The notes beneath the pieces were generated by a model that was not told the origin of the DNA, searched no databases, and saw nothing but the letters and a program-made list of their open reading frames with translations. A program made the translations under genes and the position numbers. Below, one piece after another: positions 11,836 through 35,154 of a DNA stretch of 37,944 nucleotides; positions within the stretch are counted from its first letter, which is position 1, and the number at the start of each line of letters is the position of its first letter. Origin of the DNA: a virus; IMG/VR virus record IMGVR_UViG_3300017996_000011, positions 1 through 37,944 of that record; one strand, 5' to 3'.

Positions 11836-12817
11836 CTACGGCGTCATAGTCGGCAGGTTCCAGTGCCACGAGCTGCACGACGGGCACATGGAGCTGTTCC
11901 GCATCGTGCGCGGCCGCCACAGCCGGGTAATCGTGTTCCTGGGCTGCAACAGGGTTGGCCCCACGAGGCACGACCCCCTGGACTTCGAGGTGCGCAAGCG
12001 CATGATTCAGGCGAAGTTCCCCGAGTTCACCGTCCTGCCCCTCCGGGACAAGAAGACCGACGAGGAGTGGAGCAGGGAGCTGGACTCCCGCATCTCCGAT
12101 GCCGTGGGGGAGGTCCCCGCCGAGGTCGTGCTCTACGGGAGCCGGGACTCGTTCGCCCCCTACTACCACGGCACGCACCCTGTCAGGGAGCTGGAGATAT
12201 TCAACGTCCCCAAGGCGGTCAGCAGCACGGAGGTCCGTGCCACCCTGACCAACACCGTCATGGAGTCCGCCGACTTCCGGGCAGGGGCCATCTACGCCAT
12301 GGGGCAGCTATGGCCCAGGGTCGTCACCGTGGTGGATATCGCCATCGTCCATGATTGCAGGCTGGGCCTAGGCTCCGATGCCCCAGGGGCCGGGCTGATG
12401 CTCCTAGTCGGGAAGAAGCCGGACGACATCCTCTGGCGGTTCCCTGGCGGGCATGCGCTCTTCACCACCGACTCCTTCGAGGCGGACGCCAAGAAGGAGG
12501 CCTTCGAGGAGACGGGGCTCGATGTCGATAGCCTGGAGTACATCGGCTCCCGCAGGGTGGATAGCTGGCGCTGGAAGGGCGAGCCCTCCGAGGGCTACAA
12601 GACCCTGTTCTTCGTCGCCGAGAGCATGGCGATGGGCGGGCACGGGTCGGACGACCTTTCCGAGACCAAGTGGTTCCGTATCGACGACCTGGCCGAGGAG
12701 GACTTCGAGAAGGAGCACAGGCCCCTCTTCAGGATGCTGCTCGGCCATGTCACCAGCAAGTGGGGATACAGCCTGAGGAAGAAGGAGGAGGAGCATGCCA
12801 CAGCCGTTGAAGGTTAA
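11822..12817 (+). CDS. Bifunctional nicotinamide-mononucleotide adenylyltransferase / Nudix hydrolase, 331 aa
   Basis: The N-terminal domain carries the nucleotidyltransferase signature: GRFQ (11-14), an LHDGH ATP-binding motif (18-22), and the C-terminal SSTEVR (134-139). This is the NadM/NMNAT pattern that joins ATP and NMN to make NAD+. The C-terminal domain (about 170-320) has a Nudix box: GG (209-210), KEAFEETG with Glu226, Glu229 and Glu230. Lys225 replaces the usual Arg, and the box has a one-residue offset near its start. NadM-Nudix fusions are known in bacteria and phages; the Nudix part usually hydrolyses ADP-ribose-type compounds. The next gene makes NMN, so the two form a complete two-step NAD+ salvage route. 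The end overlaps the next start by 23 nt. Confidence 0.92.
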   Translation: MNKPSYGVIVGRFQCHELHDGHMELFRIVRGRHSRVIVFLGCNRVGPTRHDPLDFEVRKRMIQAKFPEFTVLPLRDKKTDEEWSRELDSRISDAVGEVPAEVVLYGSRDSFAPYYHGTHPVRELEIFNVPKAVSSTEVRATLTNTVMESADFRAGAIYAMGQLWPRVVTVVDIAIVHDCRLGLGSDAPGAGLMLLVGKKPDDILWRFPGGHALFTTDSFEADAKKEAFEETGLDVDSLEYIGSRRVDSWRWKGEPSEGYKTLFFVAESMAMGGHGSDDLSETKWFRIDDLAEEDFEKEHRPLFRMLLGHVTSKWGYSLRKKEEEHATAVEG

Positions 12818-14228
12818 CCCCCTGGACAGGGACGACAGCTACAAGGACTCCCACTGGTTCCAGCTCCCCAAGGACACGGAGCACGTGTACAGCTACCTTG
12901 CGTCCCGTGGGGGGTTCTGGAAGCACACCATGTTCTTCGGCCTCCAGTACTACCTGGCGGCCTACCTGGAGGGGAAGGTGTTCGGCCCGGACGACGTCAC
13001 CGAGGCGGCCGACCATGCCAAGGCGCACTTCGGCCAGGACGGCATCTTCAACCGTAACGGGTGGATGCGCCTCTATGCCAAGCACGGCGGCAGCCTGCCG
13101 CTGCGCGTCCGGGCTGTCCCGGAGGGCACCGTCGTCCCCGTCAAGAACGTCCTGATGACCATCGAGAACACGGACCCCGAGTTCCCATGGCTCACCAACT
13201 GGGCAGAGACGCTGCTGCTCAAGGTCTGGTACCCTATCACCGTGGCTACCCTATCCTTCGAGATAAGGCAGGCCATCGGGGAGGACCTTGCCCGTACCGG
13301 CACCCCCTCCCTGCTGGACTTCAAGCTGCACGACTTCGGCTACAGGGGGGTCTCGTCCGAGGAGACGGCAGCGATAGGCGGTGCCGCCCACCTGGTCAAC
13401 TTCCTGGGCACCGACACCAAGGCCGCCCTGGCGATGCTGAGGCAGTACTACGACAAGCCGATGGCGGGGTTCAGCATCCCTGCCATGGAGCACAGCACCG
13501 TCACTACCTGGGGCGAGGACAACGAGGGGGATGCCTACGAGAACATGCTCAATGCCGTCCCCAAGGGGCTGGTGGCCTGCGTGATAGACAGCTACGATAT
13601 CTACCGGGCTGTCCGGGAGATATTCGGCGACCGGCTGCGGGAGCACGTGCTGCGCCGTGACGGCGTGGTGGTGCTGCGCCCGGACAGCGGCGAGCCTACC
13701 GTCATCCTTGAGGACGTGTTCAACATGGTGGCGGAGAAGTTCGGGTTCGAGACGCACCCCAAGGGCTGGAAGCTGCTGCCCGCGCAGATTAGGTGCATCC
13801 AGGGCGACGGCGTCAACTACCAGAACATCCTCCGCATCAACTCGCACCTCACCCGTGCGGGCTGGAGCATGGACAACTGGGGCTACGGGATGGGCGGGGC
13901 GCTCCTCCAGCAGCTAAACCGCGACACCCAGCGCTTTGCCCTCAAGTGCTCTGCCGTCCGCAGGAGCGGCTTCTGGGAGGATGTTTACAAGACTACCAAG
14001 GCGGACCCGAGCAAGGCCAGCATGGCGGGGCGGTTCGACCTGCTGCGCTACCCTGACGGGGAGCTGGAGACGGTCGAGTCGGATAGCTGGGACCCGCGCA
14101 GCCAGCCCGGCTGCACCAACGCCCTGGAGACGGTGTTCGAGGACGGGGCCGTAAAGCGCCACCAGACCCTTGACCAAGTAAGGGAGATTGCACGCACCTA
14201 TGACCGGTTCAAGGAGGAGGAGCAGTGA
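12795..14228 (+). CDS. nadV: Nicotinamide phosphoribosyltransferase (NAMPT/NadV), 477 aa
   Basis: NAMPT condenses nicotinamide with PRPP to give NMN. Family landmarks are present in order: KHTMFFGLQYYL near the N-terminus; HDFGYRGVSS near 178-187; GTDT near 205; SIPAMEHSTV near 226-235; RPDSGEP near 295 (the PRPP-binding region); IQGDGV near 335; and GMGGALLQQ near 365. Length matches the bacterial and human enzymes (about 460-490). It starts inside the end of the NMNAT-Nudix gene, so the two steps are co-translated. Together they would restore NAD+ from nicotinamide released by host NADases, the layout reported for the NARP2 phage pathway. No catalytic residue appears lost. Confidence 0.96.
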   Translation: MPQPLKVNPLDRDDSYKDSHWFQLPKDTEHVYSYLASRGGFWKHTMFFGLQYYLAAYLEGKVFGPDDVTEAADHAKAHFGQDGIFNRNGWMRLYAKHGGSLPLRVRAVPEGTVVPVKNVLMTIENTDPEFPWLTNWAETLLLKVWYPITVATLSFEIRQAIGEDLARTGTPSLLDFKLHDFGYRGVSSEETAAIGGAAHLVNFLGTDTKAALAMLRQYYDKPMAGFSIPAMEHSTVTTWGEDNEGDAYENMLNAVPKGLVACVIDSYDIYRAVREIFGDRLREHVLRRDGVVVLRPDSGEPTVILEDVFNMVAEKFGFETHPKGWKLLPAQIRCIQGDGVNYQNILRINSHLTRAGWSMDNWGYGMGGALLQQLNRDTQRFALKCSAVRRSGFWEDVYKTTKADPSKASMAGRFDLLRYPDGELETVESDSWDPRSQPGCTNALETVFEDGAVKRHQTLDQVREIARTYDRFKEEEQ

Positions 14229-18382: not shown

Positions 18383-20161
18383 CTACCAGCTACTACCCTG
18401 CCCTAGCCTCGTGTCGGTCACCTGGTCGATGTCGCCCACGTTCGTCTCCTTGTCCATTATCTTGACGGGCAGGGCGCTGTAGTCAACGCCGGGCGGCGGC
18501 GGCGGCACGGTCTGGGTGATAGGCTCAATCCACTGGTGGATAGAGCGCCGGATGTCCCCGATGGACACGAACCAGCTAATCCTCGGGTACCAGCGGTTCT
18601 CTATCTGTATCTTGCCTCCACCGTCGTAGTACAGGATGTTCCACTCGCTGCCGTCATGGGCCTGGAACACGGCACCGGGCAGCATGTAGGCGAAGAAAAT
18701 CTCGTCCCCCTCTATCGGCGACAGGGGGTTGGGGAGCTGCAAGGTGCCGGGGTTGGGCTTGAACTGGGCGAACGTGCTGGTGCGCACGTCGTCCGGGTCC
18801 CCCACGATGGCCTGTAGCTCCTGGTCTGGGTTCGGGTGGTCTTCCTCGCACAGCACCCTGGCCGTCTTGGCCAGGTCGGCGGTCAAATCCTTGGCTTCCA
18901 TTCCCATAGCCGTCCCTCTCTTAGTCTCGGCAACCAAGCTGCCGAGCAGGCCCACGCCTCTCTTATGGGTTGGATAGTCCCTATCCTCGCCATCCTTCCC
19001 CCCCTCCGCCTCCTGGATTCTCTCGTCCACGGCATCGTCGTCCAGCGACCTCAGGGCCCAGTTCTTGTCCTCAAGCCGTATCTCCACCACCTGGCCGGGG
19101 GACGGCCCTCCCCCCTGGGGTATCTTCCTGGGGTCCCCGTCCGTCAGGATGCACGGCAGGGCGAGCTGGAGGCGGGAGTGGCTGAAGGCGGCCACGCTCC
19201 CCCCCGTCTCCTCGAACACCTTCTTGGCCCTCTCCTGGAGCCAGTGGACTATCTTTACCGCCCGGTCGTAGAACTCCCTGTAGGGCCTGCCCCCAGGCGG
19301 GGCCTTCTCCATGCCCTGCTGGAGCGCCAGCATCTCCCCCTCGTGGTCCCGCACGTAGTCCCCGGACCACTTCCCCAGGTCCCAGGGGCGCAGGTTGGGG
19401 ATAAGGTAGAGAGCGGCCCCGGTCGCCCTTGCCACCTCCCTGGCGGTCTCGGCCGCCCTGTCCAGGTCGGACGAGTATATCTCCTTTACATCCAGGCTCT
19501 TGAACTTCTTGGCGTCCTCCTTGGCCTCCCTCTTCCCCTCCTCGTCCAGGGGGACGTTGGCCCATCCCCGGATGCGGCTGTCGAGGGAGTCCCCCGTGGT
19601 GGTGTTGTAGGGGGTATGCCCGTGCCGCCCGAAGTAGACCGTGGGCTTGCCCTCCCCGGACGCGGTCCGCCTGTGCGTGGAGAAGGCAGTCCTCCTGGCC
19701 TCCCTGATGGCCTCCTTTACCCCCCCGAGGGGGGTGCCCCCCCAGTCCATGATAACTCCCTTGCCCTCGTCGAACATATAGGCCATGTCCTCCCAGCCGG
19801 GGCCAGCGCTTGCCATGGGCCTCCACCCGTGCCAGAAGACCTCTATATCCCCAGGGGGCACGGGCCTCTCCACGAAGAACTCGCCTGCGTCCCCCCCGCT
19901 CCTGGCATCCCCCAGGCTGGGTGCCCCTACCCGCAGGATGACGGGCTGGTATGCCGGGATGGTCCCCCAGGTCTCCAGGTCGTGCCGGAATATAATCTCC
20001 CCGAAGTACCAGGCATCCTTCAGGGTGCTGGAGAAGAACACCTTGCCGAGCGAGCCTGCCCCGAGGTCCCCGCCCCAGTTCGTATCCTCCGAGGGCCTTA
20101 GCCCCTCCCTCTGGATTCCTGGGATGCGGCTGGCAGGGGTACAGTGGTATAGGTACCTCAT
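18383..20161 (-). CDS. ADP-ribosyltransferase-like / histidine phosphatase fusion protein, 592 aa
   Basis: Residues 1-110 resemble ART-fold proteins (the KptA/Tpt1 and DUF3990 style): a YHCT motif (5-8), IQREGL, then GKVFFSSTLKDAWYFGE (39-55) and a GEFFVERPVPPGDIEVF strand pair with a candidate glutamate. Such folds transfer ADP-ribose from NAD+. Residues 173-390 form a histidine phosphatase domain: RHGHT (179-183) with catalytic His180, SSDLDRAAETA with Arg235, and a later FSHSR supplying the second histidine. The remaining 200 residues are unassigned and proline-rich near the end (VPPPPPGVDY). It sits among virion-type genes, so it could be packaged and injected like T4 Alt; that is inference. 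The phosphatase call is strong, the ART call moderate. Confidence 0.8.
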   Translation of the reverse strand: MRYLYHCTPASRIPGIQREGLRPSEDTNWGGDLGAGSLGKVFFSSTLKDAWYFGEIIFRHDLETWGTIPAYQPVILRVGAPSLGDARSGGDAGEFFVERPVPPGDIEVFWHGWRPMASAGPGWEDMAYMFDEGKGVIMDWGGTPLGGVKEAIREARRTAFSTHRRTASGEGKPTVYFGRHGHTPYNTTTGDSLDSRIRGWANVPLDEEGKREAKEDAKKFKSLDVKEIYSSDLDRAAETAREVARATGAALYLIPNLRPWDLGKWSGDYVRDHEGEMLALQQGMEKAPPGGRPYREFYDRAVKIVHWLQERAKKVFEETGGSVAAFSHSRLQLALPCILTDGDPRKIPQGGGPSPGQVVEIRLEDKNWALRSLDDDAVDERIQEAEGGKDGEDRDYPTHKRGVGLLGSLVAETKRGTAMGMEAKDLTADLAKTARVLCEEDHPNPDQELQAIVGDPDDVRTSTFAQFKPNPGTLQLPNPLSPIEGDEIFFAYMLPGAVFQAHDGSEWNILYYDGGGKIQIENRWYPRISWFVSIGDIRRSIHQWIEPITQTVPPPPPGVDYSALPVKIMDKETNVGDIDQVTDTRLGQGSSW

Positions 20162-20164
20162 GCC

Positions 20165-21484
20165 CTATGCCTCTATCCTCCCGAAGGTTACCGTCCTGCC
20201 GATGGGCACCTCGACCGTGTTCTCCCAGGGCTCGCGTCCGGGCAGGGTCTCCCTGGCATCGAAGAGCGGCTCCCCGTCCCCCCTCGGGTGGTGGGGGTCG
20301 AGGCCCTGGTCGGGGTTGTCCCTTACCACAGGGTTGTAGAGCGTGGGCAGGCCCGTGTTGATGGGGATAAGGTAGCGGGTGTCGCCGGGCTTCAGCAGCT
20401 CGGTGTCGAAGTCCTGCTGGAGGAGTATCCCCCTGGGCATCTTCGAGGTTACTCCGTGGATAATCAGCCTGTCCCCGTTCCTCCTGACGATGAGGTCTCC
20501 GTCCTGCACGATGGGGGTGTTGGTCAGGTAGCTGCGGCTCTCCCTGGCTGCCTTTATGCCCCCTCCCTCGTCCAGCTCGCGCACCAGGGCGGTGTCCGGG
20601 GGCACGTACAGGATGTCGTAGGGGCCGTAGTACCCCCCCACTATCCCGACCTCGAAGCACGACTTGCAGCCATGGCGGGGGGCACCGAGGCCGGACTCCG
20701 GGCGGGTGCAGCCGCAGGGCTCCCCCCTCGTCCGCCTGAACAGGATGTAGGCCGGCTCCCCTACCTGCTCGAATATCCAGTGGTTGCGCCTTACCATCTC
20801 GGCGTACTCCCAGGTCATGCTGTCCACCTCCTGGGTGTTCACTACCCTCGTGCCGGGAGCGCCGGGCGCATGAAGCTCCCCGTGGTCCCCGACAGGCACG
20901 ATGGTATAGAACTGCCGGACCATGGAGGTATAGATGTCCACGTAGTTCTCCAGGCGCTTGTAGGTCACCTCGAACTTCTGTATCCCGGAGTAGTCCACCA
21001 CGCTGACATTCTCCGTGTAGACCTGGGCCTGGTCCGAGACCGCCCCTCCCCTCGGGAGGTCGTTGTCGGCCGGCAGGTAGACGGCATAGTCGAGGGGCAC
21101 CACGGCTATGGGGCGTACCTCCACGGTCTCGTTGGAGGGGGTAGTCAGGACGACCCTGACGTCATCGGGGCTGGTGGCCAGCTTTGGCCGTGCCGCCACG
21201 ATGTCGGAGTAGGGTGCCTCGGGGAGCCGAAACCTCCACGTGCCCATCGTCCCCCTGTCAATCCAGTCCCCCGGCCTCACCTCGTAGGTCACCTCCTCCA
21301 GGGCCGCCTGGTCCCTCCAGAAGTGCCCCTTCCATGCCCCTCCCCGGTTCAGCCTCTTCCAGTTGCTCGGGTAGTCGTGCGCCCTGTAGATATTGTACCC
21401 TTTCGTTGCCTCGGGGTCGTCTATCCACCAGAGGTCGCGGCTCCCCACATAGCTGGAGTTAAGGACGAGAATCTCGTTTACCAT
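20165..21484 (-). CDS. Probable virion structural protein with Cys cluster, 439 aa
   Basis: First gene of the minus-strand operon. The N-terminus (EILVLNSSYVGSRDLWWID, then KGYNIYRAHDYPSNW) resembles a fibronectin type III-like strand pattern. Around residues 255-280 there is a CGCTRPE...HGCKSC cluster followed by FEVGIVGGYYGPYDI, a metal-binding insertion of a kind I recall from phage structural proteins. The rest is beta-rich. Not identified as a named protein; tail or baseplate is my best guess. It ends 3 nt before the ART-phosphatase start. Confidence 0.6.
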   Translation of the reverse strand: MVNEILVLNSSYVGSRDLWWIDDPEATKGYNIYRAHDYPSNWKRLNRGGAWKGHFWRDQAALEEVTYEVRPGDWIDRGTMGTWRFRLPEAPYSDIVAARPKLATSPDDVRVVLTTPSNETVEVRPIAVVPLDYAVYLPADNDLPRGGAVSDQAQVYTENVSVVDYSGIQKFEVTYKRLENYVDIYTSMVRQFYTIVPVGDHGELHAPGAPGTRVVNTQEVDSMTWEYAEMVRRNHWIFEQVGEPAYILFRRTRGEPCGCTRPESGLGAPRHGCKSCFEVGIVGGYYGPYDILYVPPDTALVRELDEGGGIKAARESRSYLTNTPIVQDGDLIVRRNGDRLIIHGVTSKMPRGILLQQDFDTELLKPGDTRYLIPINTGLPTLYNPVVRDNPDQGLDPHHPRGDGEPLFDARETLPGREPWENTVEVPIGRTVTFGRIEA

Positions 21485-21527
21485 TGCCCCCTACTGATAA
21501 AGGGGCTGGTAGTCCTCCCGCCCGCAG

Positions 21528-21562
21528 AATCCCGCCAGAGGCGGTGTATCCTGGTGTATACT
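21528..21562 (+). promoter_or_regulatory. Phage promoter motif, copy 2
   Basis: AATCCCGCC, 7 nt, then GTGTATCCTGGTGTATACT, with TATACT starting 29 nt after the first A. It lies in the divergent gap between the minus-strand structural operon and a 71-residue plus-strand gene starting 17 nt downstream. It contains two GTGTAT units 10 bp apart, one helical turn. Confidence 0.75.
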
Positions 21563-21578
21563 GTAGGTGGAGGGCAGC

Positions 21579-21794
21579 ATGGACTTCAAAAATAACATGG
21601 TCAAGGGCATGGAAGACAACCCGATGGGCATCCCCGAGTACGAGTATACGGTAAGGGTCAGGGTCCGGGCCATCCGCCAGTCCGACGCCGACTACCTGGC
21701 GGAGGACATCGCAGAGGGCCTCGCCCGCAGCACTAAGGGCCTCAGCACGGCCTCTGTCTGCTCCGCGCAGGTCACCGAGGCCAGGAAGCTGTAA
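21579..21794 (+). CDS. Small hypothetical protein, 71 aa
   Basis: The ATG at 21579 has a GTGGAGGGCAGC ribosome site; the in-frame GTG at 21567 would sit inside it, so I reject that start. The product begins MDFKNNMVKGMEDNP and has a beta strand (YTVRVRVRAI) followed by a helix (DADYLAEDIAEGLARS). It lies immediately ahead of Ku with promoter copies on both sides, so it is probably co-regulated with Ku. Function unknown. Confidence 0.7.
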   Translation: MDFKNNMVKGMEDNPMGIPEYEYTVRVRVRAIRQSDADYLAEDIAEGLARSTKGLSTASVCSAQVTEARKL

Positions 21795-21795
21795 G

Positions 21796-21830
21796 AATCC
21801 TGCCCATATCCGTGTATCCTGATGTATACT
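21796..21830 (+). promoter_or_regulatory. Phage promoter motif, copy 3 (upstream of Ku)
   Basis: AATCCTGCC, 7 nt, then GTGTATCCTGATGTATACT, spaced exactly as in the other copies. It begins 1 nt after the stop of the previous small gene and precedes the Ku start by 22 nt, giving a very short leader (AAGCGGAGGGAAAAAAGATC). Confidence 0.8.
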
Positions 21831-21852
21831 ATAAGCGGAGGGAAAAAAGATC

Positions 21853-22857
21853 ATGGCAAAAGCAGCAAGGACCGTAGCGGATATCGCCAGCCAGCTCAGC
21901 GCTGTGCTCAAACCGCAGCCCGCCAATGCCCCCCAGGCCGCCCCCAAAGAGAAGGTCTATGTCAGCAAGGCAACATGGACCGGCACTATCTCGGTCGCCC
22001 CTGGCCTTGCCTTTAAGGCGAAGCTCTACAAGGCCACCAACGACCCCACGGAAGGCTTCAAGTCCAACATGGTACACCAGTGCTCCGCCGCCGCCAATGA
22101 CGGGACCGTGGAGTACTCGCAGCTAAAGCAGGGCAGCATGAAGTGCTCCGTGTGCGGCGTCGATGTCCCCAAGGAGAGCGTCCAGAAGGGCATCCCCAAT
22201 GGCGATGGCACCTTCACCATCATCAGCGATGACGAGAAGAAGTCCTGCATGGTCCGCTCCGAGGGCGAGATGCAGGTCCTCCGCCTTGTCCCCTCCCGCG
22301 ATGTTGACCCTATCTACTTCGACGGCGCGTCCGAGTTCCTGGGGCCCGAGAAGGGTGCCGAGAAGTTCTATGTCGGGCTGCGCAAGATGCTCGGCAAGGG
22401 CCTTGTAGCCCTCGCCGTGAACGTCCAGCGCGGGCAGGAGTACATGCTGGTCCTCCGCCCCTACGGCAAGGACGGCATCATCGCCAACTACATCCGCCGC
22501 GAGCACGAGGTCCGTGCGTGCGACAAGTTCCCCATGGTCGCCCTGAGCCAGCAGGAAGAGGGGCTCTTCTCGCAGCTAGCCGATGCCCTGACGGGCAGGT
22601 TCGACACCGAGGAGTTCCCTGACACCTACGCCAGCAACCTGCGCGGGCTTATCGTTGCCAAGCAGTCCGGCACCGCTGCCCCCGTGGTCGAGAAGCAGGC
22701 CCCCGCCGCCGTGGCGGTTGACCTGATGGCGGCCCTCCAGGCATCCATCAACGCCGCCAAGGCGAAGCAGGGCGGCCAGCCTGTCGCCGTTGCCGAGCAG
22801 CTTATCGCCGAGAAGGCCGCCGAGGCCAATACCGCTGCCAAGTTCGCTATCAACTAG
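21853..22857 (+). CDS. ku: Ku family DNA end-binding protein, 334 aa
   Basis: Prokaryotic Ku forms a ring on double-strand ends and recruits a ligase. Family features: TWTGTISVAPGLAFKAKLYKA-type start of the Ku core (41-61); His75 and Cys77 with CSVCG (98-102), a zinc-like HxC...CxxC; the segment VDPIYFDGASEFLGP (151-165); and MLVLRPYG near 198-205. The first 33 residues and the last 60 (Ala/Lys-rich) are extensions of a sort seen in bacterial Ku tails. It has its own promoter and a GGAGGG ribosome site. The next gene, 8 nt away, is a DNA ligase. Mycobacteriophages Omega and Corndog are known to carry Ku. The assignment is by motif pattern, not by search. Confidence 0.9.
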   Translation: MAKAARTVADIASQLSAVLKPQPANAPQAAPKEKVYVSKATWTGTISVAPGLAFKAKLYKATNDPTEGFKSNMVHQCSAAANDGTVEYSQLKQGSMKCSVCGVDVPKESVQKGIPNGDGTFTIISDDEKKSCMVRSEGEMQVLRLVPSRDVDPIYFDGASEFLGPEKGAEKFYVGLRKMLGKGLVALAVNVQRGQEYMLVLRPYGKDGIIANYIRREHEVRACDKFPMVALSQQEEGLFSQLADALTGRFDTEEFPDTYASNLRGLIVAKQSGTAAPVVEKQAPAAVAVDLMAALQASINAAKAKQGGQPVAVAEQLIAEKAAEANTAAKFAIN

Positions 22858-22865
22858 GAGCCGTG

Positions 22866-23642
22866 ATGAAGGCAGAGCTACTGACTCCGATAGGTATACC
22901 GAGGCTGATGGCCCTTGCCAGGGACGACAACTACGGCTTCCAGCAGAAGCACGACGGGCACCGCACGCAGGTCGAGAAGCACGGCAGCACCATAAGGACC
23001 TACAACCGGGAGGGGGAGCCCACGCAGCCCCTCCCTCCCTCCCTGCAAGGCACCCTCCTGGCAAGCGGCATCCCGGACTTCTATATCGACACGGAGCGGG
23101 TGGGCAAGCGGCTCATCGTCCTGGACGTCGTCAGCCTCCTGGGCTCCAGCCTGAGGGTCCTGCCCTACAGCAGCCGCGAGCCTATCGCCCACCAGGCGTT
23201 CGACCATGCGGGGCCGGGGGTAGAGGTCATCGGCACCGTCCTGGGGACGGGGGCCAAGCTGGCCTTCCTGGAATGGCTCATCCGCACCAGGGCAGAGGGC
23301 GTGGTCGTGCGCGACATGAGGAAGCCCTACAGGGAAGGGGATGCCTGCCAGCACTTCAAGCTCAAGTTCGTCAAGGAGTGCGATGCCGTGGTCATAGGCC
23401 CCTCCCCGGACGGCAAGGACAGCGTCCGCATAGGGCTGTACCGGGAGGACGGTACCCTGCACGAGATATCCGGGGTAAGCCTCAGGAACAAGTTCCAGGC
23501 CCAGCCCGGCGAGGTCGTGACGGTGCGCTACCTGTGCGTCACCAGGGACCTGCACATACGGGAGCCCCATCTTGTCCGCAAGCGGGACGATAAGAGGGCC
23601 TCCTGCTGCTGGCTGAGCCAGCTTACCGAGGAGCAGATATGA
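22866..23642 (+). CDS. ATP-dependent DNA ligase, compact form, 258 aa
   Basis: The ATG at 22866 has a TAGGAGCC ribosome site. Motifs: KHDGH with Lys28 as the AMP-accepting lysine; YIDTERVG near 75 (motif III, with DTE in place of the usual DGE); AEGVVVRD near 143 (motif IV); FKLKF (motif V); and REPHLVRKRDDK in a C-terminal OB-like region. The sequence DAVVIGPSPDGKDSVRIGLY resembles the LigD ligase OB domain. It thus looks like a minimal two-domain ligase without polymerase or nuclease parts. Adjacent to Ku, it makes a two-component end-joining pair. Ends in an ATGA overlap with the next small gene. Confidence 0.88.
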   Translation: MKAELLTPIGIPRLMALARDDNYGFQQKHDGHRTQVEKHGSTIRTYNREGEPTQPLPPSLQGTLLASGIPDFYIDTERVGKRLIVLDVVSLLGSSLRVLPYSSREPIAHQAFDHAGPGVEVIGTVLGTGAKLAFLEWLIRTRAEGVVVRDMRKPYREGDACQHFKLKFVKECDAVVIGPSPDGKDSVRIGLYREDGTLHEISGVSLRNKFQAQPGEVVTVRYLCVTRDLHIREPHLVRKRDDKRASCCWLSQLTEEQI

Positions 23643-23812
23643 CGCTGAGGGAACAGATCGAGGCTGTCGTCAGGAAGGCCAAGGCCGCGAATGCCGATGA
23701 CGAGCGGAACGGCGAGGGCTCCTTCTACGTGCTCGGCTATATCGCATGCGCCCAGGACGTCCTCCGCGTGCTCGACGGGAAGACCCCGGCCAGCGCCTAC
23801 TGGGAGGTATAA
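23639..23812 (+). CDS. Small helical protein, 57 aa
   Basis: It starts in an ATGA overlap with the ligase stop and ends in a TAATG overlap with the next gene, so it is locked into the Ku-ligase operon. The product (MTLREQIEAVVRKAKAA...) is helical, with a central FYVLGYIACAQDVL segment that is mildly hydrophobic. Could be an accessory to the end-joining pair, but nothing in the sequence shows that. Confidence 0.65.
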   Translation: MTLREQIEAVVRKAKAANADDERNGEGSFYVLGYIACAQDVLRVLDGKTPASAYWEV

Positions 23813-24009
23813 TGGTAGCAGTCACCCACGGGAGGGCAGAGAGGCTCCCCGAGGAAGAAGTAAACGATATCCTATGGGAGATAGCTGCGGACATCCTGGG
23901 CCCGGCTTACAGGGCGGCCTACGAGAGGCTGTACTCGCTCAAGGAGGATGTCAGGGTGCAGTATACCCCGCCGTTCCGGCATAAGAGGAGGCCTATACCG
24001 TGTCCCTAA
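23812..24009 (+). CDS. Small hypothetical protein, 65 aa
   Basis: The ATG shares a base with the preceding TAA. The product is helical and charged (ERLPEEEVNDILWEIAADIL) with a basic Arg/Lys/Pro tail. Its end overlaps the next gene by 10 nt. No family recognised; it is probably in the Ku-ligase transcript. Confidence 0.6.
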   Translation: MVAVTHGRAERLPEEEVNDILWEIAADILGPAYRAAYERLYSLKEDVRVQYTPPFRHKRRPIPCP

Positions 24010-24212
24010 CAAAGCTGCTCAGGAAGCTGGCTTTCCATGCTGCCGTGGTCATAAGCGGCACCTGTGCCATCGTCCTGCTGATGGTCAGGCTGGTTACGAA
24101 GGGGGCCATCCCTGCCCAGCGGGCGGTTGAGCTGGGGTTCTGGCTGGCCATGGTTCTTGGCCTCGTGCTCGGGCTGCTCACCGTCTTCCTTGAGGGGAAA
24201 GGGGTTATCTGA
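24000..24212 (+). CDS. Small two-helix membrane protein, 70 aa (GTG start)
   Basis: A GTG start lies 9 nt after AAGAGGAGG. Two hydrophobic segments (FHAAVVISGTCAIVLLMVRL and LGFWLAMVLGLVLGLLTVFL) with a short polar turn make a membrane hairpin. The pattern fits a holin-like or accessory membrane protein, but no lysozyme is nearby. It overlaps the next gene by 1 nt. Confidence 0.6.
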   Translation: MSLTKLLRKLAFHAAVVISGTCAIVLLMVRLVTKGAIPAQRAVELGFWLAMVLGLVLGLLTVFLEGKGVI

Positions 24213-24409
24213 TGGGCCTATTCCAGCGCTTCCTGCGCCTCTTTGCCAGGAAGAGGAAGGCACTGCCCGACTACATCCTGTTCGCCCCCTGCCTGCGCCA
24301 TGGCGTCCGCTGCCGCAGCTACGAGGAGATATACGACCCGAGCACGGGACGCCTCCGCCCCGAGATGTTGGCCATGATTCCTCCCTACGCCCTATCCCCT
24401 TACCTATAG
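24212..24409 (+). CDS. Small basic protein, 65 aa
   Basis: It starts in a TGATG overlap. The N-terminus is amphipathic and basic (MGLFQRFLRLFARKRKALP), likely an interfacial or membrane-associated helix; the rest is polar with Arg and Tyr residues (SYEEIYDPSTGRLRP). Ends just before promoter copy 4. No family recognised. Confidence 0.6.
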   Translation: MGLFQRFLRLFARKRKALPDYILFAPCLRHGVRCRSYEEIYDPSTGRLRPEMLAMIPPYALSPYL

Positions 24410-24410
24410 G

Positions 24411-24445
24411 AATCCCGCCCGGTTTTGTGTATCCTGGTGTATACT
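24411..24445 (+). promoter_or_regulatory. Phage promoter motif, copy 4
   Basis: AATCCCGCC, 7 nt, then GTGTATCCTGGTGTATACT, again with 29 nt from the first A to TATACT. It starts 1 nt after the preceding gene ends and is followed 21 nt later by the ATG at 24467 with a GTGGAGGG leader nearly identical to that of copy 2. Confidence 0.8.
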
Positions 24446-24466
24446 GTAGGTGGAGGGAAAAACGTT

Positions 24467-24688
24467 ATGGCATGGCAACTACCAAACAGGAAAACCAAGA
24501 AAAGGACCCCTGTAACCAGGGACGAGAGATTCGGCAACTCCGTCGCCGAGCTTATGGATACCCTGGAGACGGTCAGGAAGAATAGCCAGAGCCTTCCTAG
24601 TGGGCTCCTGGACAAGGTCCACGGGAGGGTCGAGGACCTGACTATCCTTATCCAGAGGGCCATCCTTATCCAGAAGGCCCTTGACTAG
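24467..24688 (+). CDS. Small basic helical protein, 73 aa
   Basis: The ATG follows a TGGAGGGAAAAACGTT ribosome site behind promoter copy 4. The N-terminus is basic (RKTKKRTPVTRDERF); the remainder is two helices (SVAELMDTLETVRKNS; VEDLTILIQRAILIQKALD) with a heptad-like Leu/Ile spacing that could form a coiled coil. A single-gene transcript is likely, as the next gene is convergent with a 4-nt overlap. Candidate small regulator; unknown. Confidence 0.65.
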   Translation: MAWQLPNRKTKKRTPVTRDERFGNSVAELMDTLETVRKNSQSLPSGLLDKVHGRVEDLTILIQRAILIQKALD

Positions 24689-25278
24689 GCCTTTACCCAC
24701 TCCCGCTTGACCTCCACCCAGTCCCCTGGCAGTACCTCTTCCTTCTCGCCGCAGGCGAACTGGAAGTCGGCTATGTCCGGCAGCCCGGCGAACAGCCACC
24801 TCGTCCCCAGCATGATATTGACAAGGTGGGTGCATACCACCACGTGCCCCTCCTCGGGGGCATCGTAGATGACCTTCTTTATGCCCTCCGTCAGCCTTTC
24901 CAGGAAGGCGTTCATCGACTCCCCGCCCTTGGGGGACAGGTCCCTGCCCGCCCCCGTGGCGAGTATCCCCAGCACGTCCCTGACCTCCGACACTGGCTTG
25001 GCGTTCAGGATGCCGTAGTCGCGGGACTTCAGCCCCTCCAGCTTCTCCACCTTCAGCCCGTACTCGTGCGCCACGGTAGTGGCGAGGATGGACGCCCTCT
25101 CCAGGGGGCTGCTGTATACCTGCCTGATGCAGCAGAACTTGGACTTGATGCTGCCCACCACCCTGGGTATCTGGGCGAACCCGTCCGGGGACAGGGGGAT
25201 GTCCAGGCCCCCGCGCAGGCGGATAGGCTCCGTGTTGTAGGCCGTCTGAGTGTGGCGCAGGAACACGATGCGTTTCAC
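24685..25278 (-). CDS. Histidine phosphatase superfamily protein, 197 aa
   Basis: The start FLRHTQTAYN carries the phosphatase motif with catalytic His9 (RHTQT instead of the usual RHGxT). YSSPLERASILATTVA supplies the second arginine, and VVVCTHLVNIMLG the second histidine. Length suits a phosphoglycerate-mutase-type phosphatase, of which substrates range from sugars to nucleotides and proteins. Its relation to the phosphatase half of the 592-residue fusion is only at superfamily level by eye. The start lies 2 nt from the homing endonuclease end. Confidence 0.85.
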   Translation of the reverse strand: MKRIVFLRHTQTAYNTEPIRLRGGLDIPLSPDGFAQIPRVVGSIKSKFCCIRQVYSSPLERASILATTVAHEYGLKVEKLEGLKSRDYGILNAKPVSEVRDVLGILATGAGRDLSPKGGESMNAFLERLTEGIKKVIYDAPEEGHVVVCTHLVNIMLGTRWLFAGLPDIADFQFACGEKEEVLPGDWVEVKREWVKA

Positions 25279-25280
25279 TT

Positions 25281-25991
25281 CTACCCCTTCTCTAACGGTT
25301 TACAAAGAGGGCATCCTGAACTAATCTGTCCTCGGTTAACATGCCAGCGTACATGCTGGGCCTTCTTTCCGCTTCGCTCATAGCCTAGCCGCCCCGCCCT
25401 CTGTTTGGTCTGCCTAGACCCGGCCTTGCCTCCCAGTACATGAGCCTCGTGGGACAGACGGGCGGACGCCTCCTCCTTGTGCGCATCCACCCACTTTTGG
25501 CAGCCTGCGACCCGCACAGATTCGTCTTGGAGGGCACGGACGACCCTTATCTTATCCTTGGTCTCGGGCGATGTGGGGTGCCCGCCCATAACCTTCCTCC
25601 AGTGCTCCCGGAAGCTCGGCTGTGCCCACCTTTGCTTTAGGGCCTTGGTCACTTTGGCTTTCGCCGCAGGTCCGTGAGGACCGGTGAATCCCTCCCCTCC
25701 CCGGCAGATATTATAGCCGTACTCGGGGTCCTGCGACCGTAAGAACCTGATGAAGTCTTTTTCTGTCCGGTCAAGTTCGGCTTTATTCTGGATGTCGGAG
25801 CGGAGGGCGTGGATGGACCACAGTGTAGCCTGAGGATACTTCCGCATCGCATTAAAGAGGTATGATTGCCCACCTCGATGATGTCTGGCATCTGAAAACT
25901 TAGTCTGGAGATACCTCTTTAGGTTGTTGCCTTTGTGCTGGCCCACATAGTACTTTCCGGTTTTATGGTTGACAATTAGATAGATAAACAT
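25281..25991 (-). CDS. GIY-YIG homing endonuclease, 236 aa
   Basis: I chose the ATG at 25991 because a GGAGG site lies 5 nt upstream on the minus strand; longer reading through 26111 gives a stretch unlike protein. The start FIYLIVNHKTGKYYVGQHKG is the GIY-YIG nuclease signature, with a later ELDRTEKDFIRF supplying the catalytic glutamate region. The C-terminal half is basic, with an HVRWHVNRG...CPLC ending like a zinc finger used for DNA recognition. Local base composition is visibly more AT-rich than neighbouring genes, and it sits between two minus-strand genes, so it is probably a recent mobile insertion. It cuts DNA to spread itself; no intron is evident. Confidence 0.88.
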   Translation of the reverse strand: MFIYLIVNHKTGKYYVGQHKGNNLKRYLQTKFSDARHHRGGQSYLFNAMRKYPQATLWSIHALRSDIQNKAELDRTEKDFIRFLRSQDPEYGYNICRGGEGFTGPHGPAAKAKVTKALKQRWAQPSFREHWRKVMGGHPTSPETKDKIRVVRALQDESVRVAGCQKWVDAHKEEASARLSHEAHVLGGKAGSRQTKQRAGRLGYERSGKKAQHVRWHVNRGQISSGCPLCKPLEKG

Positions 25992-26038
25992 TTGAACCTC
26001 CACATATAAATACTGTGGATAGTCCAAATTTCCTGTCA
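25992..26038 (-). promoter_or_regulatory. AT-rich leader of the homing endonuclease with inverted repeat
   Basis: This 47-nt gap is the AT-richest stretch in the window. It holds CCACA...TGTGG arms around TATAAATAC, which may be a hairpin or a promoter -10 region for the minus-strand endonuclease. No clear -35 box is seen. The motif shared by the five plus-strand promoters is absent. Confidence 0.3.
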
Positions 26039-26962
26039 CTAACCCAAGAGCCAGCGCTGCTGCCTGAGCCCTACGGACATGGGCCGTATGGCGGTGATGA
26101 GGGGTGCCCACTCCTGGAACTCCTGCTGGTAGCTCTGCCCTAGGCTCTGGTAGAGCTGGGACTTGTTGATGTCCAGCGATACCCCGTTCAGCGAGTAGCT
26201 GAACTCATCGGCCGCCCACCGTGCGCCCTCGGCTGTCAGGCAGGAGGACGCTGCCCCGACCGCTGCGCACTTCCCCCAGTCCCTCGGCACGTTCTCCAAG
26301 GTAAAGCTCGTTAGGTTCTTCGGGTTCCAGGTGTTGAGCTTGGCTATGGCTATGTCCAGCATCCTCAGTATGGTGGGGTCGAGCCAGATATACCCCACCC
26401 TGGTCGTGTACCCCGCCACCACCCTGCCGGGCGTGGGGGGGCGGAAGTGGTAGTCCCTGTCCGGGTTGGTGTCCGAGAGCAGCTCTCTCACGTACATGAT
26501 GGCCGGGGCATACTTGTTGGTCGTCACCGGCCGCTGGGCGATGATGGCGCTGGGTGCCTCGAAGGAGGAGCTTGCCGGGTCGATGGCCTGGACGATGAAG
26601 TCCTCGAACACCCTGTTCTCCGGCTGGCCGGGGTACTGCACGATATACCATACCAGGCGGAATATGCCCCGCCAGAGGGTAGGCACTACCATGGGGACGA
26701 AGTACGCCCCCTGGGAGCCCCGGCAGGGCACCATCTTGGGCGGGCTGGCCAGGACGAGGTCCTTCTCCGGCAGCACCAGCATGCTGTTGGGCTGCTCCAG
26801 GTCATAGTCGTATGCCCGCTGCCCCGCCAGGGGCACCTTGTCGGTGACCTGGAATATGGAAAAGGCGATGATGGCGGGGTCTATGAGCGCCCCGTTCGAG
26901 TCCCTTACCAGGATGCCGAGGTCTCCCGGCCCCAGCTTCTTCCCCTGCGTCAAGGTAGTCAT
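26039..26962 (-). CDS. Probable virion structural protein, 307 aa
   Basis: The ATG at 26962 has a GGGGAGCAGCA ribosome site and begins MTTLTQGKKLGPGDLGI; longer starts look less natural. The N-terminal half is beta-rich (FSIFQVTDKV, MVVPTLWRGIFRLVWYIVQY) and resembles extracellular tail or capsid-decoration strands. The C-terminal half is helical and ends in RQQRWLLG. No family is recognised; the placement next to the sheath and tube genes, on the opposite strand, suggests a structural role. Confidence 0.6.
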   Translation of the reverse strand: MTTLTQGKKLGPGDLGILVRDSNGALIDPAIIAFSIFQVTDKVPLAGQRAYDYDLEQPNSMLVLPEKDLVLASPPKMVPCRGSQGAYFVPMVVPTLWRGIFRLVWYIVQYPGQPENRVFEDFIVQAIDPASSSFEAPSAIIAQRPVTTNKYAPAIMYVRELLSDTNPDRDYHFRPPTPGRVVAGYTTRVGYIWLDPTILRMLDIAIAKLNTWNPKNLTSFTLENVPRDWGKCAAVGAASSCLTAEGARWAADEFSYSLNGVSLDINKSQLYQSLGQSYQQEFQEWAPLITAIRPMSVGLRQQRWLLG

Positions 26963-27538: not shown

Positions 27539-30500
27539 ATGGCACTTTTCGGTTCCTACGCACCCCCAGGGGTCTACACCTCGGTCGTCATCAGCGGAGC
27601 AGGCATACCGCTCTTCGGGAACGCCCGCATCCCTGTCATAATCGGGGAGGGCCAGGAGTTCTTCGAGCAGGACAACGTGGAGATTTTCCGTGGCTCCAGC
27701 GCGATAGCCCAGCCCTTGGTGGTGAACGAGAACATCTCGGACCAGATTACCGAGATTACCAACGAGGCCCATACCACCTACTTCCCGGTGGTAGTGGGGG
27801 GCAATGCCGGTGGCACGGGGCCGGGGACATCCGCCATTACCGATAACCCGGCGTACCTCCAGGTGACTGACAACGGCATCCCGCTCACCGTCATCTCCCT
27901 CAAGGGGCAGACCGGTGCCTTCTACACGCAGGAGCTTATGGTGCCCGGCGACAACGTCGAGATTACCTACTACTTCCTGCGCACCGACACTCCTATCACC
28001 AACGAGAACGAGTCTGACCAGGTCCCGAGCTATGCCGCATGGCAGGTCTACGATACCAATGGCAACTATGTGCCTGTCAGCGTCTCTCTCCCCGGCTCGA
28101 CCGGCAGCAATGTCACGGTAAACGTCTTTGACGACACCCTGTCCTCCCCTGCGGGCACCGGCGTGCTCGACACGCAGGCCATCGGCGGGGCGGGCACGGA
28201 TGCCATCACCTTTGACATCGCCAAGGTAGGGGGCGGGAAGCGCACCCTCGCGGACTTCTACGCCCTCCTCCAGATGAACATCCCGACCCTGGACGCGGGA
28301 ACCCTGGTCGCCCTGGCCCCGGTCCTGGCAGGCTCCCCCCCGGTCCTGAGCGACATGTACCCGGCCCTCTACCAGCTCCAGGGCGGGTTCGGCCCCAGCA
28401 CCAACACGGTGTTCAAGGTCGAGCATGTCCCCATCGTGGACGGCAGCGGCGGCGGCGTGGTCACGACCGACCCGACCAAGGTCACGGCAACGGTCAATGG
28501 CAGCACCACCGTCAACCCGGTCAGGGCAGTGGACGGCCTGCATGGCCTCGTGACCCTGACCCACCCCGTGGAGTCAGGCAGCACGCTTACCCTGAGCTAC
28601 TACACCAACACCTACCAGAACACCTACGACATCATCCCGGCGAACAACGTGTCGTCCGTCATACAGGTAGGGCTGGGCCCCAACCGGACGGACTTCATCG
28701 AGGATACTGACTATACCCTCGGCACGGACGGCAACGGGAACGACACCATCAACTGGGGCGCAAGCTCCGCGACAACGGTCGGCACCTCCACCACCGGCTA
28801 TACCCCCTTCGGGCCGACCCAGATACTCACGACCGTAGTGGACGAGAGGGTGTTCCTGCGCCTCTGCACGGGGGCCAGCAGCGGCTCCAACCTAGTCTTC
28901 ACGCTCCCGGACAACCCGACTGACGGCACCGGCCAGGGCAACGGCCCTGGGACCGTCACCGATGACCCGACCAAGATACAGGTCTATGTCGGCGTCAACC
29001 CCGTGGAGGCCCTGGAGAACTACCTGCCCGGCGAGTCCGAGCGGGTCATAGCCCTCTCCGGCAGCACGAGGCACTTCACCCTCTACAAGCCCCCCCTACT
29101 GGGCCAGAACGTCTACGCCTCCTACTGGCGCAGCACCCTGAACGACCACAGCTACACGGTCAAGGTCTCCAACCCCGGCATCTCGGGGCAGGGCACCTAC
29201 ACCATCAACGACGAGGTCGGGAGGGTGCTCCCGGTCGTATCGTTCAATGCCGGGGCAAGCTCCGTCCACCAGAGCGGCGAGTTCGCCCAGCAGGGCATCA
29301 TCTGGCCCTACAATTTCCCCGACCTGTACGACTCCCCAGGCGAGGTGGACGAGACTGTCACCCTGACCTTCCAGGACGACGGGTATACCCGTGACGTGGA
29401 CCCAGGGGCGCAGTCCTACCTCACGACCCAGGGCATCCTGTTCTTCTGCACCACGCCCGGAGTCGGCGGCAATGCCATAAGCGTGGCGTTCAACACCACC
29501 GGGACCTATGGAATCACCAAGGTCGGCAACGCCATCACCTTCAACGGCGTCACCACCACCAACCAGGTCATCACCCTGGCCGGTTCGGGCATCACCACCA
29601 CCTTCGGCACCGTCCTGGCCCAGCTTGTCACCGTGGGCACCATCAGCACGGCGGCGGCCGTCCACCTGGACGGCGGCGTTGACCCGGCCGACCCCCAGCC
29701 ATACTCCCTCCGCTACCTCGTCACCTCCTCCAGCCCGGACGGGTCCAGCGGCGAGGGCTACCTCGACCAGACCTACATCGACGAGAACACAGGGCTCAAG
29801 TTCACCATCGTCAGCCCGCAGGATGCCGTCCCGGACTACGGGTGGCAGAGCGTCCCGGTCCCCTACACCTTCGAGCCGGGCGACTACCTGGTGTTCCAGG
29901 TCAGCAGCGAGCAGGTCCGCTACTCGGGGTCTACCTACTTCCCGTACAGCGATGCCCAGCCCAACAACCTCGTCTGCATCGCCGGGCTCAACACGACGGT
30001 GGTCACCACCTTCGGTGCCAACACCGGCGACACCGCCATCATCCAGACCTTCAACAACTCCGGCAACCAGCCGGCCATCGGCGAGTACTACTACGTCTCC
30101 TTCCAGACCGAGAAGACCCCCGCCGACATGGCCATCACGCTGTACGACAGCGCCAGCAAGGCCTACTCGGCCTACGGGCAGCCCACTACCGTCAACCGCC
30201 TCAGCCTGGGCGTCCAGCTCATGACCGAGAACGGGGCGCAGCAGTTCGGCTGCATCCAGGTCCCGAAGCAGCCGGGGCTAGGCACTGCCACGGACGCCAG
30301 CTTCATAGCGGCCATCCAGACACTCGCCACGGCGCTCCCAGGCACCACCCAGAAGGCCAATGTCATCGTCCCGCTGAGCACCAGCACCTCGGTCCACCAG
30401 TTCCTCAGCCGCTTCCTCATCACCCAGGCGAACGTGAGGAACAAGGGGGAGGCCATCGGGTTCGTGGGCTACTCCAGCACTACCACCTCGGCCCAGGCCA

Positions 30501-31132
30501 GCGCCAACGCCGTGTCCCTCAAGAACGCCAGGATGCTGGCCATCGGCATGCCTGCGGCGGCGATACTCCTGACTGACTCCCAGAGCGGCATCCAGCTTGA
30601 GTACGCCGTGTCCGGCGAGTTCATGGCAGCCGCCATGGCAGGGCTGAACACCAACCCCGCCAACGACGTGGCCACTACCCTGACCAACCAGGACCTCGTC
30701 GGGTTCAGCAGGCTGCTCGTGCAGTACGACGACACCACCATGAACCTGATGGCATCGAACGGGCTCATCTGCCTGACCAACAACAACGGGGCGCTCTACA
30801 TCCGCCACTACAAGAGCACCGACCCGAGCAACCCCATCACCTCGGAGCCGACCTGCACCACGGTCACCGACTACGTCTGCCAGCAGTTCAGGGCGGACCT
30901 CCAGCAGTTCATCGGCAGGAAGCTGGTGGACGGCCTGACCACGGACATCGCGGTGGTGTGCAACGCCAGGCTGGTATCCCTCGTGAACAACGAGATAATC
31001 ACCGGCTACAAGGACCTCACCGTAATCCCGGACCCGACAGACCCGACCACGGTGGACGTCACTGTCACGTTCAAGCCGATGTTCAGCCTGCTCTACATCT
31101 CGGTCACCTTCACCGTGACCACGACCCTGTAA
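27539..31132 (+). CDS. Tail sheath protein, 1197 aa, with Ig-like insertions
   Basis: The N-terminus MALFGSYAPPGVYT is typical of contractile tail sheath proteins. The C-terminal third is the conserved sheath part, with helices and strands (IGFVGYSST, LAIGMPAAAILL, LTDSQSGIQLEYAVSGEFMAAAMAG) and a final beta segment (VDVTVTFKPMFSLLYISVTFTV) that links neighbours. At nearly 1200 residues it is about twice T4 gp18 (659). The excess lies in the middle: at least three diverged modules starting near residues 97, 307 and 472 share a (T)DxPTK-V...GxxxxV...GSTxxL pattern, like Ig-like decorations on the sheath surface. Translation follows a hairpin and a strong AAGGAG site. I am confident of the sheath call from N- and C-terminal features. 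Confidence 0.88.
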   Translation: MALFGSYAPPGVYTSVVISGAGIPLFGNARIPVIIGEGQEFFEQDNVEIFRGSSAIAQPLVVNENISDQITEITNEAHTTYFPVVVGGNAGGTGPGTSAITDNPAYLQVTDNGIPLTVISLKGQTGAFYTQELMVPGDNVEITYYFLRTDTPITNENESDQVPSYAAWQVYDTNGNYVPVSVSLPGSTGSNVTVNVFDDTLSSPAGTGVLDTQAIGGAGTDAITFDIAKVGGGKRTLADFYALLQMNIPTLDAGTLVALAPVLAGSPPVLSDMYPALYQLQGGFGPSTNTVFKVEHVPIVDGSGGGVVTTDPTKVTATVNGSTTVNPVRAVDGLHGLVTLTHPVESGSTLTLSYYTNTYQNTYDIIPANNVSSVIQVGLGPNRTDFIEDTDYTLGTDGNGNDTINWGASSATTVGTSTTGYTPFGPTQILTTVVDERVFLRLCTGASSGSNLVFTLPDNPTDGTGQGNGPGTVTDDPTKIQVYVGVNPVEALENYLPGESERVIALSGSTRHFTLYKPPLLGQNVYASYWRSTLNDHSYTVKVSNPGISGQGTYTINDEVGRVLPVVSFNAGASSVHQSGEFAQQGIIWPYNFPDLYDSPGEVDETVTLTFQDDGYTRDVDPGAQSYLTTQGILFFCTTPGVGGNAISVAFNTTGTYGITKVGNAITFNGVTTTNQVITLAGSGITTTFGTVLAQLVTVGTISTAAAVHLDGGVDPADPQPYSLRYLVTSSSPDGSSGEGYLDQTYIDENTGLKFTIVSPQDAVPDYGWQSVPVPYTFEPGDYLVFQVSSEQVRYSGSTYFPYSDAQPNNLVCIAGLNTTVVTTFGANTGDTAIIQTFNNSGNQPAIGEYYYVSFQTEKTPADMAITLYDSASKAYSAYGQPTTVNRLSLGVQLMTENGAQQFGCIQVPKQPGLGTATDASFIAAIQTLATALPGTTQKANVIVPLSTSTSVHQFLSRFLITQANVRNKGEAIGFVGYSSTTTSAQASANAVSLKNARMLAIGMPAAAILLTDSQSGIQLEYAVSGEFMAAAMAGLNTNPANDVATTLTNQDLVGFSRLLVQYDDTTMNLMASNGLICLTNNNGALYIRHYKSTDPSNPITSEPTCTTVTDYVCQQFRADLQQFIGRKLVDGLTTDIAVVCNARLVSLVNNEIITGYKDLTVIPDPTDPTTVDVTVTFKPMFSLLYISVTFTVTTTL

Positions 31133-35140: not shown

Positions 35141-35154
35141 GAGGCACAAAAAAG

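Follow-up and report, generated by a model that had tools for sequence, protein, structure and literature searches.

The phage contig IMGVR_UViG_3300017996_000011 from environmental DNA, whose entire record of 37,944 bases was analysed and is called the window below, carries a Ku gene followed directly by a gene for a small ATP-dependent DNA ligase, and we consider it reasonably probable that the two genes form a phage-encoded two-gene end-joining module. With them, the phage could probably join DNA ends using its own parts, and the pair might act independently of host LigD. The window contains a marker of contractile-tailed phages, a tail sheath gene at 27539-31132 (Pfam and PHROG profile matches). 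Phage Ku is usually regarded as borrowing the LigD of its host, and Pitcher et al. are said to have reported in 2006 that mycobacteriophage Ku depends on it. In one survey, 11 viral Ku were recorded, ten from mycobacteriophages and one from a Streptomyces phage (PMC11936186). A literature search of open-licence papers gave no description of a phage Ku-ligase pair in the available text of the matches listed.

The profile matches confirmed that the first gene encodes a divergent bacterial-type Ku. The initial annotation had described a Ku-like core from short motifs, and TWTGTIS, CSVCG, DPIYFD and LRPYG are indeed present. The protein was placed in the Ku family by PF02735 (E 4.7e-17, 62.9 bits against a cut-off of 25), and it also matched PHROG 4873 'Ku-like' (2e-26) and the bacterial Ku 8v53 in the PDB (2.5e-20). 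TIGR02772 was matched at 8.5e-35 over positions 2-259 of its 259, yet the score of 120.5 bits was below the curated cut-off of 150, so we filed the protein as a divergent Ku of PF02735 and not as that equivalog. After the core comes a minimal C-terminal motif, DLMAALQASI, identical in all four rows of the alignment (A1); a similar motif turned up in 12 of the 15 bacterial Ku that were sampled, and the pattern missed the other three. Because this region is kept, cooperation with host LigD would be possible. The tail that follows (35 aa) has a net charge of +1, compared with +3 to +15 in the 12 sampled actinobacterial Ku with a measurable tail. MT838252.1 (L012, 'Bacteriophage sp.'), considered as a second phage Ku, was rejected: it reads like an actinobacterial chromosome, with an Fpg-like gene beside Ku, and was used only as outgroup and query.

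The second gene had been described as coding for a 258-residue ligase with KHDG, EGVVVR and KLK motifs, 8 nt after Ku, and all of this was found as described. The start was set at ATG 22866, with GTG 22863 as an alternative. The protein matched PF01068 (1.5e-8, 35.1 bits against a cut-off of 26.2) and PHROG 114, ATP-dependent DNA ligase (6.8e-11); its best NCBIfam match was TIGR02779, a model for LigD-type end-joining ligases, but at 50.9 bits this was below the curated cut-off of 227.75. The residues that we take to be motifs I, III, IIIa, IV, V and VI are K28-x-D-G, D75-x-E77, D87, E144-G, K165-x-K167 and R240, respectively, and K28, E77 and E144 were kept in 27 of 27 aligned rows. Motif III reads DTE and not DGE, as had been noted; its E was invariant in 14/14 (A9) and 27/27 (A15) rows, and its T was restricted to 3 of the 27, all from this phage group. 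The sequence-level PDB search gave nothing better than E 0.5, and neither the phages collection (50,697 records) nor a peptide scan of genome_contigs gave a match to the ligase.

The AlphaFold model built from a 27-row alignment reached a predicted local distance difference test score (pLDDT) of 92.2, and the model from four near-identical sequences gave 38.9. When the former was compared by VIA-align with human LIG1 (8v1w), LIG3 (3l2p), LIG4 (6bkg) and the LIG domain of LigD (6nhx), the Z scores were 20.9, 20.9, 20.2 and 20.0, the root-mean-square deviations were 2.8, 2.7, 3.0 and 10.6, and the aligned residues numbered 258, 250, 257 and 239, respectively. All matches listed, 50 from Foldseek and 50 from VIA-align, were DNA ligases or ligation complexes of non-homologous end joining (NHEJ). 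The model indicates that the window ligase is a DNA ligase core of nucleotidyltransferase (NTase) and OB domains without a third DNA-binding domain. No WGR domain was matched in it, and the protein begins at the ligase domain.

Relatives of the ligase were found on plasmids and in phages. The plasmid search gave 13 records with 26-30% identity over 87-98% of the ligase length, from Rhodococcus, Mycolicibacterium, Mycobacterium, Tsukamurella, Acidiphilium, Azospira, Variovorax, Pseudomonas and Halopseudomonas, annotated as 'WGR domain', 'RNA ligase family', 'ATP-dependent DNA ligase' or 'hypothetical'. All five of those scanned matched DNA_ligase_A_M (PF01068) at or above the cut-off. Three of the five matched WGR, a domain that binds DNA breaks (one above, one at and one below the cut-off), and three gave a weaker match to RNA_ligase, PF09414 (two above it). 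A plasmid ligase as query found one phage record, the 309-kb jumbo phage Tunturi_5, whose host is from Acidobacteriota (PMC11924767), and an alignment of six ligases found 40 loci in IMG/VR. About 23 of 39 IMG/VR ligases had a WGR-like N-terminal region according to a simple pattern search and visual inspection. The loci of this group are Tunturi_5 gp61 (L146:9656-10798), L134-L144 and L147-L186.

In a quick 59-row tree (long branches, midpoint root; 10 of 22 LigD rows, actinobacterial only, and 10 of 26 LigC-like rows, one of which, L042, is the G009 ligase described below over again), the window ligase fell inside a 38-row clade with WGR ligases (SH-like approximate likelihood ratio test, SH-aLRT, 99). 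On the opposite side stood 21 rows of LigD, LigC-like proteins and the G009 ligase (99). The window ligase is 20-30% identical to ligases of the WGR clade, and its tree position together with the lack of a WGR match led us to file it in the clade by the tree only, not as a WGR ligase. The phylogeny against LigD that had been recommended thus set the protein outside the LigD/LigC-like side. By this placement, the ligase is not a LigD derivative and belongs to a clade of phage and megaplasmid ligases. The initial annotation had pictured a partner ligase of the phage's own without the other LigD domains; the absence of these domains held, as five LigD queries found no POL or PE relatives in the open reading frames (ORFs) of the window or of the related contigs G001 and G002, which are fragments (best 0.43). 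The clade appears to be a little-noticed family, with no description found in the literature searched. The main text of one survey of minimal ligases does not contain 'WGR', and its extracts mention end joining for Lig D alone (PMC8455567); a jumbo-phage survey, in the extracts seen, treats ATP ligases as parts of replication and links NHEJ to SbcCD (PMC7824862).

Several features of this clade were seen in passing. In the Halopseudomonas plasmid (L144:3615-4753), separate but overlapping gene annotations cover the WGR part and the ligase part. The Mycolicibacterium alvei plasmid (L139:2323-4774) has a HEAT-repeat gene not far from its WGR ligase. The WGR ligase of contig G031 (L212:10458-11792, minus strand) gave hits to two candidate-defence models of PADLOC, WGR_XIII (1.3e-25) and HEAT-ARM_XIII (6.8e-14), so that a role of the clade in conflict is possible. 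Together with the HEAT-repeat gene, these hits may link the clade to defence. A known defence system was rejected for the window pair, neither gene having a PADLOC match at E <= 0.01.

By match values, the window and the five related contigs (G001-G005) represent only three lineages, namely the window with G002, G004 alone, and G001 with G003 and G005. G002 (IMGVR_UViG_3300035490_000346) is nearly the same as the window, with 99.9% identity across 1455-37944. The 8-nt gap between the Ku stop and the ligase ATG in the window has GGAG at the Ku stop; the gap is 10 nt in G001 and 8 nt in G004, again preceded by GGAG, which is thus present in 3/3 lineages. Among the three lineages (three pairs for each gene), the ratio of nonsynonymous to synonymous substitution (dN/dS) ranged from 0.14 to 0.32 in Ku and from 0.19 to 0.26 in the ligase, which indicates that both genes are under purifying selection. 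The ligase was found in 5/5 related contigs and Ku in 4/5 by hidden Markov model (HMM) search; the fifth contig ends within its Ku gene.

The sister phages gave a different picture. In 16 sister contigs, chosen by a 62-73% identical NAMPT gene (partial in L211) and including contigs of 184, 231 and 332 kb, Ku was found in 0/16 and a PF01068 ligase in 0/16; the ligase therefore does not belong to the core genes of this lineage. Six sister contigs were examined more closely and share the gene set of the window, with sheath proteins 43-72% identical. The genes that flank the island holding the pair, at 20165-21484 and 26039-26962 (both on the minus strand), are 4554 bp apart in the window but approximately 285 bp apart in G056 and 65 bp in G068, both in the arrangement of the window. 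In four others, the block is inverted and the distance is approximately 0.5-1.2 kb (about 1.2 kb in G064, G065 and G067, which give identical values and may be one phage, and less than 0.8 kb in G069). The joint presence and absence of the two genes, together with the adjoining flanks in the sisters, indicates that the pair was acquired or lost jointly, as the cargo of an accessory island (Table 1).

Table 1. Features of the accessory island in the window
Feature	Position	Strand	Remarks
Accessory island	21485-26038		About 4.5 kb, holds Ku and ligase; flanking genes are neighbours in 6/6 sister contigs examined
16-bp motif GTATCCTGGTGTATAC, copy 1	21546-21561	+	Putatively promoter-like
Small ORF, 75 aa	21567-21794	+	In the island; not found in G001 or G004
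16-bp motif, copy 2, upstream of Ku	21814-21829	+	Same place in G001 (L021:9592), last base differs
Ku	21853-22857	+	334 aa; core beta-barrel domain, conserved minimal C-terminal region, 35-aa tail of net charge +1
ATP-dependent DNA ligase	22866-23642	+	258 aa; NTase and OB, no WGR; its clade also holds WGR ligases
Four small ORFs after the ligase	23639-23812, 23812-24009, 24000-24212, 24212-24409	+	
16-bp motif, copy 3	24429-24444	+	
Small ORF, 73 aa	24467-24688	+	In G001, G002, G003 and G005; not in G004
Histidine-phosphatase-like gene	24685-25278	-	In 5/5 related contigs; best NCBIfam match 8.9e-17, all below curated cut-offs

The two genes also recur near each other in other phage contigs. 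Among 39 contigs selected by the ligase (from the 40 loci, the very short L172 being left out), Ku was above the cut-off in three, G031, G037 and G050; matches below the cut-off in G034, G028 and G020 were not counted. In G031, which has tail sheath, terminase, head and baseplate genes, the ligase precedes Ku on one strand at a distance of 293 bp, the reverse of the order in the window. In G037 and G050, Ku and ligase are also on one strand, and a joint scan of both contigs found portal, terminase (two proteins), sheath and head genes. The ligase gene of G050 (L214:16137-17446, minus strand) is broken, frameshifted or misassembled, whereas its Ku reads through; this ligase was excluded from the trees, its reading spanning two overlapping frames. 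Among 14 contigs sharing the G031 terminase, the only one with Ku, G079, was also the only one with the ligase. In G009, found by its Ku, a ligase of 382 aa that falls on the LigD/LigC side lies 2.9 kb downstream; this contig and G006-G008 were taken as phages on the basis of being IMG/VR contigs. As a background, tblastn with Ku gave hits in 82 of 50,697 phage records (Mycobacterium phages in 81 cases, the query scaffold itself in the other), a comparison with 3/39 by HMM that is only rough as methods and contig sets differ. In a Ku tree with 15 sampled bacterial Ku (from the best 80 of 547 loci), the Ku of the window, G031, G037 and G050 joined weakly (support 75), a result compatible with a single origin of the pairing and equally with separate ones. 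A rule that Ku replaces the WGR domain was considered and rejected: the Ku-paired ligases of G031, G037 and G050 keep WGR-like N-termini, and some phage ligases of the clade have neither WGR nor Ku on their contig (for example L174, L175 and L179). The repeated proximity, the tight spacing and the joint presence or absence of the two genes support the reading of a module.

Our preferred account of how such a module would work is as follows. A Ku homodimer would thread onto the free double-stranded ends of the phage DNA, shielding and tethering them. The Ku core and its minimal C-terminal region might then recruit or stimulate the bare NTase-OB ligase, which would be translated together with Ku and would seal compatible ends. 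The likely use would be the circularisation of the linear genome or the mending of breaks during infection. G001 carries an integrase-family gene in its 40-80 kb region (phrog_1, 6e-46), so circularisation would be useful to the phage. By analogy with described ligases, we infer that Ku may supply the end holding that the bare ligase lacks. A ligase that consists of NTase and OB alone joins ends poorly but improves once a DNA-binding domain is attached to it (PMC5746248). The Ku core of M. tuberculosis binds the isolated LIG domain of LigD. On its own, this domain can seal nothing but nicks; its nick sealing is stimulated by Ku from which the extended tail is missing, whereas full-length Ku does not have this effect (PMC9638933). 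The window pair fits both precedents, its ligase being bare and its Ku having a tail of +1 after the core and the minimal C-terminal motif.

Not all observations agree with a joining module, and the following weigh against it. The tails of the other paired phage Ku are more basic (G050 +2, G031 +3, G009 +3, G037 +7), so a low tail charge is not general, and with the other paired ligases of the clade carrying WGR-like regions, neither is the fit to these precedents. The genes are not adjacent in G037 (about 6.7 kb apart), G050 (about 4.5 kb) and G079 (about 6.2 kb). No Ku above the cut-off was found in 36 of the 39 ligase-clade contigs, many of which are short fragments; Tunturi_5, a complete phage genome, has the ligase and no Ku; and 10 of 11 ligase plasmids checked (of the 13 records, H91 and H92 were not included) have no Ku, the eleventh having one about 65 kb away. 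Conversely, none of four Ku contigs (G006-G008 and the mycobacteriophage Courthouse, the latter in 110.6 kb) has a PF01068 ligase, and none of seven further Ku contigs of 106-111 kb, presumed from their size to be mycobacteriophages and one of them perhaps Courthouse, has one either. The window-type ligase is also the only ligase PHROG among the 96 G001 ORFs scanned and could therefore be a general phage ligase. The island holds unrelated-looking genes as well.

Much of this would also be expected if Ku works with host LigD and the neighbouring ligase is a general nick sealer for replication or repair, the two sharing the island by chance, an explanation that we regard as unlikely but deserving serious weight. 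It would fit the many ligase contigs without Ku, Tunturi_5 among them, the single ligase PHROG of G001 and the minimal C-terminal motif that Ku shares with sampled bacterial Ku, and Corndog likely circularises by NHEJ aided by its own Ku (PMC4351075). It agrees less well with the tight spacing, the joint gain or loss and the repeated proximity in other phage contigs, or with the lack of a PF01068 ligase in the sister contigs, three of which exceed 180 kb. We believe that a role in which Ku only caps the ends against host nucleases in the manner of Gam, and the ligase seals nicks as part of the same guard job without any joining complex, is rather improbable. Mu Gam, a relative of Ku, does protect phage ends (PMC1378119). 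The setting on an accessory island would suit a guard function, as would the PADLOC matches of the G031 ligase. However, to our knowledge Gam lacks the bacterial C-terminal region that the window Ku keeps, the recurrent association with a ligase speaks for joining, and the window Ku and ligase themselves lack PADLOC matches at E <= 0.01. That the second gene encodes an RNA or capping-type nucleotidyltransferase and not a DNA ligase is very improbable indeed. The PF09414 matches of three plasmid relatives and the annotation of some as 'RNA ligase family' point that way, but the window protein has no PF09414 match at E <= 1, all five scanned relatives match PF01068, and the OB domain with motif VI and the consistently DNA-ligase structural matches argue for the fold of a DNA ligase, in line with the initial annotation. 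Of the refuting conditions named there, the two that concern the sequence, a first gene outside the Ku family and an RNA ligase as the second, did not apply.

Compared with the bacterial Ku-LigD system of NHEJ, the module proposed here likewise has a Ku core with a minimal C-terminal region and an ATP-dependent DNA ligase as the presumed partner. The ligase, by contrast, has only 258 aa of NTase and OB and comes from another clade, the Ku tail is short and hardly basic, and the searches of the window and the G001 and G002 fragments gave neither a POL nor a PE domain. The mycobacteriophages Omega, Corndog and Courthouse also encode a Ku, but the window Ku is only 28% identical to that of Courthouse, which has no such ligase. 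Ku and an ATP-dependent ligase are likewise separate associated genes in Archaeoglobus fulgidus and in bacteria (PMC1378119, PMC3765255); the pair in the window differs in being phage-borne, on an accessory island, with a ligase outside the LigD and LigC rows tested. A Ku beside a separate ligase is thus already known in cells, and the phage-borne pair with this ligase clade appears to be new among the papers searched. The WGR-domain ligases of megaplasmids and phages share the clade of the window ligase, but many have an N-terminal WGR and most are without Ku, whereas the window has Ku and no WGR. Lig E minimal ligases resemble the window ligase in size (about 250 aa) and in having NTase and OB (6gdr, TM 0.65), but most carry a leader peptide and their range is proteobacterial (PMC8455567); the ligase tree held no Lig E row.

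If the reading of a module is true, the pair would rank as an end-joining system of unusually small size, with two parts and neither a polymerase nor a nuclease, and phages could circularise or mend their genomes in hosts without NHEJ. The phage and megaplasmid ligase clade, with its many WGR members, would be a possible pool of end-joining enzymes. We also put forward, as a tentative idea that is itself unlikely to hold in full, that tailed phages assembled self-contained end joining without LigD several times from Ku and small ATP ligases of two clades, the clade described here consisting of mobile-element end-joining ligases in which ends are held by a fused WGR, a separate Ku or both. Ku and the ligase are small proteins and directly testable.

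The 16-bp motif GTATCCTG[AG]TGTATAC occurs four times in the window (from 21546, 21814, 24429 and 34264), and G001 also has four copies when one mismatch is allowed; none was found in eight sister pieces. The initial annotation had given the pair its own promoter copy; a copy of the repeated motif does stand before Ku, and its role as a promoter is putative. The fourth copy lies outside the island, just before the ORF 34303-35373. Of the small ORFs in the island, 24000-24212 is present in all five related contigs. ORF 25281-26003 (minus strand) has a GIY-YIG-like start (YLIV...YYVGQ, by eye) and a weak PADLOC match to UzuA (2.5e-5). Its homologs sit between the same two genes in the Ku-less sister phages G064 and G065, and a GIY-YIG-like match was found there in 3/3 inverted contigs tested (G064, G065 and G069). 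It is possibly a homing endonuclease marking a variable site, and it was rejected as a part of the module because Ku-less sister phages also have it.

The rest of the window was also surveyed. A megablast search with 24 kb of it gave no match in the phages collection, and a tRNA search found none. The tail sheath protein is very long (plus strand, 1197 aa), with the PHROG sheath match limited to residues 885-1195. A second histidine-phosphatase-like gene, in addition to that of the island, lies at 18383-20161 (minus strand) within a 592-aa protein (PF00300, 2.5e-29). A NAMPT-type nicotinamide phosphoribosyltransferase is encoded at 12795-14228 (plus strand; PHROG 448, 1.1e-145), and the gene next to it at 11822-12817 (plus strand) has a NUDIX domain and a weak nucleotidyltransferase match; the two are perhaps a phage NAD-salvage pair.

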